A DNA stretch of 64,000 bases, from positions 1-64,000 of the forward strand of contig SUUE01000002.1 in assembly GCA_015062685.1 (NCBI GenBank), in the 5' to 3' direction. A model generated the notes under the pieces. It was not told the origin of the DNA. It did not search any database and worked only from the letters and a program-made list of their open reading frames with translations. Below, piece by piece: positions 50,600 to 52,236 of this stretch (positions are counted from its first letter, which is position 1; each line of letters starts with the position of its first letter). Source of the stretch: Coriobacteriaceae bacterium. GTDB taxonomy: Bacteria > Actinomycetota > Coriobacteriia > Coriobacteriales > Eggerthellaceae. A program made the translations under genes and the position numbers.

Positions 50600-50712
50600 A
50601 ATACTCCCCAATAACGAAAAGCCGCGTGCGTGCACGTGACAGCACGGGAGCGCACGAGACGACATGCTGCAAGCGTGCGGAAACTCGCTTTGTGACAGTT
50701 GAGTGGGAATAG
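50600..50712 (+). repeat. 113-bp island right-end repeat, copy A, ending in att core
   Basis: aatactccccaataacgaaaagccgcgtgcgtgcacgtgacagcacggg...gttgagtgggaatag; parallel to 52124-52236. Confidence 0.88.
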
Positions 50713-50808
50713 TACCTCCTTATATATTGCGCTACCACACATTTTTACGTCCTTATTTTTGCTATATCAAGCTATAATGAGGACGTATTCTTTATGGAGG
50801 GAGGTTGC

Positions 50809-52110
50809 ATGAGGAGAGCCCTCATGGATGAACTCGTTGCCTGGAAGGAGAATGCGCGGCGCAAACCGCTCATCCTGAACGGCGCCAGGCAGGTTGGAAA
50901 GACCTGGCTGCTCAAGGAGTTCGGCAGGCTGAATTTCGAGAACGTCGCCTACGTGAGCCTCGACAACGACCCGCTCGCTCGCAGTTACTTCGACTCCGGA
51001 TTCGACATCGCGAGGATCATCGCCTCGCTTTCGCTCGAGCTCGACATGGACATCCAGCCAGGGAAAACGCTCATCGTCCTAGACGAGGTGCAGGCCTGCC
51101 CGAAGGCCATCACGTCCCTCAAGTACTTCTGCGAGAACGCGCCCGAGTACACCGTGGCCGCAGCTGGGTCGCTTCTAGGGATATCGGCAACCGAAGGAAC
51201 CGGCTACCCCGTCGGCAAGGTCAACACGCTCGACCTCTACCCGCTGACATTCACCGAGTTCCTCGACGCGACGGGAAACGAGAGGTTCGGAAAGCTCATA
51301 AGCTCCGGGGACGCTGAGATGATGAGCGCTTTCTCGGACAAGCTCGCCGAGCTCCTCAAGCAATACTACGTCGTGGGAGGTATGCCCGAGGCGGTGAACG
51401 CCTACGTCGCCGAGCAGGACGTGCGCGCCGCACGGGCAGTCCAACAAGAGATCCTGAACGGATACGTGAGCGATTTCGCGAAGCACATACCGCCCCGCCT
51501 GCTCGCGCGCACCATGCTCGCCTGGCAGTCGATCCCGGGACACCTGTCGCAGGAGAACAAGAAGTTCATCTTCGGGCAGGTGCGCAAGGGCGCCCGCGCG
51601 GCCGACTTCGAGGAGAGCCTCGCGTGGCTCCAGCAGGCAGGCCTGATTTACAAGGTGCGCCGCGTGAGCAAGCCGCACGTGCCGCTGCCGAGCTATTGCA
51701 ACATGAGCGCGTTCAAGGTCTTCATGGTGGACGTGGGGCTCCTCGGCGCCATGAGTGGCCTGGAGCCGAGGGGCGTCATCGACGGCAACAAGGTCTTCAC
51801 GGAGTTCAAGGGCGCGCTCACCGAGCAGTACGTCTGCCAGCAGCTCATCTCGGAATGCGGTCTCTCGCCCTACTACTGGTCGGCGGAGAACTCGACAGGC
51901 GAGATCGACTTCCTGGTCCAGGATGGCAGCGGCGTGTTCGCCATCGAAGTGAAGGCCGAGGAAAATCTCCGGGCCAAGAGCCTTCGCGCGTTCAAAGAGG
52001 CAAATCCCGAAGTTGACGCGGTGCGGTTCAGCTTGTCAGGCTACCGCGAGCAGGACTGGATGCGCAACGTGCCCCTGTACGCCGTTTCGTGCAAGGGGCT
52101 ATGGGGCTAG
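50809..52110 (+). CDS. AAA ATPase, DUF4143 family
   Basis: LILNGARQVGKTWLLKEF, IVLDEVQACPKAI, C-terminal STGEIDFLVQDGSGVFAIEVKAEE. Confidence 0.93.
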   Translation: MRRALMDELVAWKENARRKPLILNGARQVGKTWLLKEFGRLNFENVAYVSLDNDPLARSYFDSGFDIARIIASLSLELDMDIQPGKTLIVLDEVQACPKAITSLKYFCENAPEYTVAAAGSLLGISATEGTGYPVGKVNTLDLYPLTFTEFLDATGNERFGKLISSGDAEMMSAFSDKLAELLKQYYVVGGMPEAVNAYVAEQDVRAARAVQQEILNGYVSDFAKHIPPRLLARTMLAWQSIPGHLSQENKKFIFGQVRKGARAADFEESLAWLQQAGLIYKVRRVSKPHVPLPSYCNMSAFKVFMVDVGLLGAMSGLEPRGVIDGNKVFTEFKGALTEQYVCQQLISECGLSPYYWSAENSTGEIDFLVQDGSGVFAIEVKAEENLRAKSLRAFKEANPEVDAVRFSLSGYREQDWMRNVPLYAVSCKGLWG

Positions 52111-52123
52111 CTGCAAAGTGAGC

Positions 52124-52236
52124 AATACTCCCCAATAACGAAACGCCACGTGCGTGCACGTGACGGCACGGGAAGGCACGAGACGGCAAGCTGTCAGCGT
52201 ACGGCAACTTGCCTTGTGACAGTTGAGTGGGAATAG
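52124..52236 (+). repeat. 113-bp island right-end repeat, copy B, ending in att core
   Basis: aatactccccaataacgaaacgccacgtgcgtgcacgtgacggcacggg...gttgagtgggaatag. Confidence 0.88.

Follow-up and report, generated by a model that had tools for sequence, protein, structure and literature searches.

Downstream of guaA in the window (the whole stretch of DNA analyzed, 64,000 nucleotides from a Coriobacteriaceae bacterium), a single ATPase gene lies between two parallel 113-bp repeats that end like guaA itself, which raises the question of what kind of unit the repeats delimit and how it came to be there. The genome, G000, is 94% complete at 2.53 Mb on 53 contigs and clusters with Eggerthellaceae-type Coriobacteriia. 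The repeats reported in the preliminary description are real; they align without gaps at 88% identity (89% over 115 nt), in direct orientation and with a spacing of 1524 bp, and both terminate in GTTGAGTGGGAATAG, as does the 3′ end of guaA. That only this 15-mer is common to guaA also holds, since the shared stretch is 18 bp (17 matches) and there is no resemblance beyond the core. Across the whole genome, with up to two mismatches allowed, the 15-mer occurs only in the repeats, at the guaA end (37978-37992) and where a second guaA paralogue ends (C28:81526). The 113-bp repeat has just two full copies in this genome, both inside the guaA island, and the DUF4143 ATPase gene is, as described, the only gene between them. 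We consider it probable (roughly 0.8) that the repeats are the core-proximal halves of a right attachment end, belonging to small cassettes that insert in tandem behind guaA and are mobilized by an integrase.

The island has at least four cores (at 43559, 46054, 50701 and 52225), and its features are collected in Table 1. The segment 37993-43558 carries metabolic genes. The diverged right end RE-III shows 84–86% identity to right ends in loci L163 and L161. Three guaA-terminator-like copies begin at 37993, 46084 and 52237. The sequence from 52237 onward resembles the empty guaA flank of genomes G113 and G115 (for G113, identity to the region downstream of guaA is 77% over 52218-52349), and 37993-38087 extends the guaA alignment with G114 and G124. 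With three such copies, the original chromosomal flank is ambiguous. At 49044, inside an AAA_33 gene, the Fic cassette appears to be joined by homologous recombination to an unrelated segment (46066-49003) that is common to G124. Elsewhere in the window, 155-bp repeats at 26967-27121 and 28232-28386 are 94% identical and each contains a near-perfect 38-bp palindrome (TGGCACGATA...TATCGTGCCA).

Table 1 Features of the guaA island, in coordinates of the window.
Feature	Coordinates	Strand	Basis or remark
guaA (GMP synthase)	36421..37992	+	Pfam GMP_synt_C 6.5e-42; last codons GTTGAGTGGGAATAG (37978-37992) = target core
Degenerate core GAGTGAGAATAG and left end of AAA_33/DUF4143 cassette, left-end type D4	43559..43640	+	
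AAA_33 kinase-like gene, cargo of 43571-46064 cassette	43647..44219	-	Pfam AAA_33 2.7e-06
Second DUF4143 ATPase, cargo of 43571-46064 cassette	44260..45552	-	Pfam 4.6e-29; PADLOC PDC-S01 1.7e-50
Diverged right end RE-III, core GAGTGGGAGTGA at 46054	45850..46064	+	nhmmer against RE-I profile, E 0.001
guaA-terminator-like sequence after 46054 core, left-end type D1	46084..46175	+	75% copy of 38000-38091
Fic gene (SoFic-like), cargo before first 113-bp right end	49461..50510	-	Pfam Fic 3e-11; PADLOC SoFic 7e-31
Right end RE-I, short form, core 50698-50712	50600..50712	+	Repeat alignment
Left end of DUF4143 cassette (cluster D0, 23 junctions)	50713..50793	+	Inverted repeat TTACGTCCTTAT...ATGAGGACGTA before start codon
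AAA_14/DUF4143 ATPase, 438 aa, sole gene of 1.5-kb cassette	50794..52110	+	DUF4143 1.2e-35, AAA_14 1.5e-27
Right end RE-I, short form, core 52222-52236	52124..52236	+	Repeat alignment
guaA-terminator-like sequence (D1) past last core	52237..52323	+	Likely chromosomal right flank

We then compared the right ends across Coriobacteriia. Searches across the class covered 396 genomes, sampled evenly; the window's genome and its relatives are mostly fragmented metagenome assemblies with contigs broken by repeats, and G051, G102 and G303 are single contigs. Of the 138 genomes of the family, 9 have the RE-I unit, the window's own included, as do three genomes from another family (G385, G303 and G373). 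Nearly all near-full copies (16 of 17) reach a complete GAGTGGG core, and the exception (L096:140-244), which lies 139 bp from a contig end, departs from the others within the core. A single upstream cluster, U1, unites all 17 junctions. In the 16-copy alignment the GAGTGGG core is invariant and the mean column identity is 86%. The pieces of RE-I that stand alone are upstream-half fragments or the first ~50 bp only, and full units dispersed away from a core, which would have marked an ordinary repeat, did not turn up. These copies, and the exchangeable left ends beyond them, support the earlier proposal that the 113 bp form the right end of an element. The unit is not the whole end, however; it is the core-proximal part of a right end of ~280 bp in most relatives, which has additional TACTCCCC and GTGAGTACA repeats and a CTACCTGCGG or CTGACCTGCGG motif at -217 to -220 from the core. 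Both right ends of the window are short forms that lack the CTACCTGCGG motif and may be inactive. The short form occurs in the window and in L091, and its sequence would fit an origin by deletion between direct repeats of 16 bp (AATACTCCCCAATAAC) that the long form carries 132 bp apart. The arm sites suggested to flank the crossover core are best taken as candidates. Searches returned no Rfam family in the 36-54 kb part of the window and no right-end match in plasmids, and two RE-I words had no exact counterpart in the viral contigs searched.

We took 286 core-like sites from the loci and clustered the flanking sequence of each side separately. The left end D0, which leads into the DUF4143 gene, follows guaA (n=7), RE-I (n=3), the second right-end family, RE-II (n=4), RE-III and two integrase-type ends, so that at least five right-end types other than guaA precede it; the seven guaA-D0 loci come from records named Slackia, Olsenella, Collinsella, Coriobacteriaceae and Atopobiaceae. 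Similarly, the left end D4 of the second window cassette follows guaA (L158, L198), RE-I (L094, L096), RE-III (L163) and two further types. Homology to the D4 cassette begins at 43559 in G113 and G124, and homology to the DUF4143 cassette begins at the core in L161 (from 50701) and L037 (from 50699). For pairs of RE-I copies with differing downstream neighbors, the mean identity falls from 0.75 over the 30 bp leading up to the core to 0.26 beyond it. Of the loci gathered by DUF4143 similarity, and not by the core, 35 were from Coriobacteriia, and 18 of these have a core 92–112 bp ahead of the DUF4143 gene start (chance expectation, ~0.013 per locus); none of the 11 loci from other groups has one there. 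The cores are exchange points, and homology breaks exactly there. The resulting arrangements range from a single 0.8-kb cassette exactly between guaA and the guaA terminator (L158) to three tandem cassettes of 1.5–2 kb with three different right ends (L091) and eight cores within 15 kb (L155). Around the contig ends of the 'single-contig' genome G303 (L150-L154) the array is present twice in direct orientation and once, incompletely, in inverted orientation, which is either a real duplication or an assembly fault. The second guaA paralogue (G000 C28:80620-81540; loci L209-L221) is a target too, and cassette-type left ends follow it in several relatives.

We compared individual cassettes between genomes, with guaA as the reference. 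A 1905-bp AbiEi-AbiEii cassette is 99.4% identical between the finished chromosome G051 and G114, a member of the window's genus (guaA 75.9%). The match starts at the left core and stops inside the right core, and the neighbors differ on both sides (left, an integrase-type end in G051 and RE-I in G114; right, DUF4143 and a guaA-terminator-like sequence, respectively). The window's Fic gene has DNA identities of 98.7% in G119, 97.8% in G114 and 95.3% in G032, compared with 86.3% and 84.3% for guaA in the first two and 74.4% for guaA2 in the third. The window DUF4143 gene and that of G385, from another family, are 98.7% identical over the 559 bp compared (guaA 83.4%), and across the 1466 bp of 43559-45024, counted from the core, the identity to G113 is 98.8% (guaA 79.0%). 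Single cassettes at 98–99% identity, guaA at 76–83% and precise borders at the cores show recent movement of units that carry no integrase. Judged by these sequence comparisons, cassettes have spread horizontally between genera and families.

Next, we annotated the cargo in a chosen set of loci. PADLOC and Pfam assign the cassette genes to PDC-S01 (several subfamilies), SoFic, AbiE, AbiD, ApeA-like HEPN and PDC-S56; further cargo comprises HigBA (HigB-like with an HTH/acetyltransferase partner), YoeB-YefM and a Schlafen/AlbA protein. The cargo is mostly made up of predicted defense or toxin-antitoxin genes. In rumen microbes, PDC-S01, AbiE and SoFic are reported to rank with the most abundant defense systems (PMC13356809). 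The smallest cassette, which is 0.8 kb long and adjoins guaA directly, holds a 119-aa gene that has no Pfam match (L158:19310-19669).

The DUF4143 cassette itself has a longer relative. In L081 a DUF4143 gene with 98.8% identity to that of the window has a TfoX-like gene and then a long right end behind it (the TfoX domain was assigned on the L091 homologue of this gene), and similarity to the window ends at 52118, the TfoX gene being gone. The 1.5-kb unit is therefore a deletion derivative of a DUF4143-TfoX cassette, which refines the preliminary description of it as a minimal unit with one gene. The 438-aa protein matches the PADLOC PDC-S01 profile (1.9e-175, residues 6-433), which makes it a PDC-S01 defense candidate with a predicted role in phage protection. 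No homologue of solved structure was found by sequence. The AF2 model has a STAND-like ATPase fold (pLDDT 85.6), aligns best with the archaeal ATPase 2qen (Z 15.7, RMSD 4.8, 272 residues; the C-terminal part is barely covered) and aligns with CED-4/NLR ATPase modules at similar Z. As a guess, the ATPase might trigger a C-terminal effector. Upstream of DUF4143 genes of several phyla (L056, L058-L063, L067-L071, L074, L079), a direct repeat of ~20 bp, such as TTTTACGTCCTTATTTTTG, occurs two to four times, and the cassette versions (window 50740-50792) have one inverted pair. These upstream repeats are possibly an autoregulatory site.

Which enzyme moves the cassettes? By tblastn there is no tyrosine integrase in 37993-52236 and none beside any RE-I copy (34 integrases of the genus as queries). 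The window's own genome has none of the L044 type at E 1e-80, and the annotated island genes include no conjugation genes. The L044 type is found in other Coriobacteriia. In L044 itself, the integrase gene stops 163 bp short of a core, and the DUF4143 left end follows that core. Of 18 loci whose integrase has 61% identity or more to that of L044 (itself counted), 17 have a core 161–207 bp past the stop codon, compared with 0 of 12 for more distant integrases. The ends of this clade usually carry CTGACCTGCGG or a close variant near -53, with an inverted copy at +50 on the left side in several elements; the CTACCTGCGG motif is common to RE-I and the integrase-type ends, but its position relative to the core differs (-218 and -53, respectively). 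The best relative of solved structure by sequence is the Tn1549 Int (6emy, E 3.2e-15), which places the linked integrase with Tn916/Tn1549-like enzymes, and it scores 25.8 bits against the integron-integrase profile TIGR02249 of NCBIfam (cut-off 265). Integrase remnants persist in two arrays, as a fragment in G051 and as fragments in G303. The G051 tandem, which lies ~32–38 kb past guaA and runs in the same direction, consists of the integrase remnant with its end, the AbiE cassette and a DUF4143 cassette. An integrase of the L044 clade is most likely the enzyme that acts on the cassettes, presumably recognizing RE-I. Tn916-like integrases that have no link to the guaA core (L184-L186, L188-L195) have a CTGACCTGC-like motif just past the gene, which suggests a general end motif of this integrase group.

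A cassette extends from one GAGTGGGA core to the next and comprises a left end, one or two genes, a conserved right end and a core, with no recombinase encoded. We propose that the tyrosine integrase of a guaA-specific element would act on it in trans or in cis and excise it as a circle, which could then insert at guaA or at the core of another cassette, leading to shuffling and spread. Transfer between cells would be provided by a conjugative helper, and the cargo may be under selection.

The cassettes are most likely trans-mobilized and CIME-like. Whether they amount to a gene-cassette system comparable to integrons, in which right ends separate from the integrase tag one- or two-gene defense cassettes on the guaA core and a Tn916-like integrase captures, reorders and spreads them in trans, is a tentative proposition, to which we give somewhat less than even odds. 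The arrays could also be decayed CIMEs, that is, conjugative or mobilizable elements that integrated at guaA, accreted and lost their integrases separately, leaving old attR sites as right ends and cassettes that are immobile by themselves. Accretion of this kind is well documented (PMC5704250, PMC3146451), and the integrase remnants of G051 and G303 and the truncated right ends of the window are in keeping with it. However, decay does not readily account for integrase-less cassettes with precise core borders that are 98–99% identical across genera and families with guaA at 76–83%, or for the conservation of RE-I over unrelated cargo with no adjoining integrase, and we regard it as rather unlikely.

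Recombination at shared sequence, without a site-specific enzyme, is improbable as the process that shuffles this hotspot. Two RE-I copies 1.5 kb apart could recombine and the 49044 junction looks like a homologous join, but the swaps occur between right-end types that have only the core in common, and homology stops at the core. An integron-like array with folded single-stranded attC sites would resemble the guaA arrays in its small tandem cassettes, ~110-bp sites and missing local integrase, as in CALINs. This is more improbable still, as RE-I has no conserved fold (18 predicted pairs, none of them compensatory; weak single-strand folds with z-scores of -0.25 to -1.3 in five of six) and the linked integrase resembles the Tn1549 Int, far below the integron cut-off; an attC-like fold of RE-I is not supported. 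Least credible is an ordinary dispersed intergenic repeat, REP- or MITE-like, with a guaA-like word at its end by chance: it would explain a non-coding repeat in several genomes, but not why both full copies in the window's genome sit in the guaA island or why all copies but one run into a complete core.

Comparison of the arrays with known systems indicates which of these features have precedents. In GIsul2/CR2-sul2, a guaA-type integrase excises and integrates a segment that has no integrase gene and lies between att sites, with the same guaA 3′ end target and GAGTGGGA core as here (PMC9376610). That system is one unit beside its own integrase, in Proteobacteria, with a resistance gene, whereas the Coriobacteriia have multi-cassette arrays with no local integrase, a conserved right end of ~113–280 bp and mostly defense or toxin-antitoxin cargo. 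Tn5801-like islands of the Tn916 family also integrate at the guaA 3′ end, with 11-bp direct repeats, but are 25-kb putative conjugative elements with their own integrase (PMC4844618). The island of the window has the guaA 3′ end insertion and the GAGTGGGA core at its junctions but no guaA-specific tyrosine integrase of its own. The ssrA-specific islands of Dehalococcoides, 15 of which have no integration module and were suggested to be cis-mobilizable, are similar in their tandem arrangement, short direct repeats of the gene end and an extra conserved motif upstream of the repeat; they differ in their serine recombinase, ssrA target, larger size and dehalogenase cargo (PMC3146451). The CIME concept covers tandem integrase-less islands (PMC5704250). 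As in a CIME, which keeps attL and attR and lacks integration and transfer genes, cores bound each segment of the guaA island. Integron cassettes and CALINs share with the guaA arrays the tandem one- or two-gene units, a conserved recombination site and the lack of a local integrase, but no attC-like fold was found in the guaA arrays, and the integrase linked to them belongs to another family than IntI. SCC elements at rlmH form composite arrays in which recombinase-less segments are separated by direct repeats at a gene end, and they differ from the guaA arrays in using Ccr serine recombinases and in being staphylococcal.

In literature searches on such arrays or on DUF4143, no account of Coriobacteriia with cassette arrays at guaA came up. 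The guaA 3′ end with its GAGTGGGA core (PMC4844618, PMC9376610) and the movement of an integrase-less unit by a guaA integrase (PMC9376610) were already known. New, as far as the literature found shows, are arrays of very small cassettes, a dedicated right end, largely defense cargo and core-precise shuffling across the class.

The array makes trans-mobilization of minimal units directly testable. The cores also give exact boundaries, and thus uncharacterized cassette genes, such as the 119-aa gene of L158, become defense candidates by their location. The arrays represent a vehicle for single defense genes, in which PDC-S01, AbiE and SoFic cross genus and family borders as core-bounded cassettes without a recombinase of their own.
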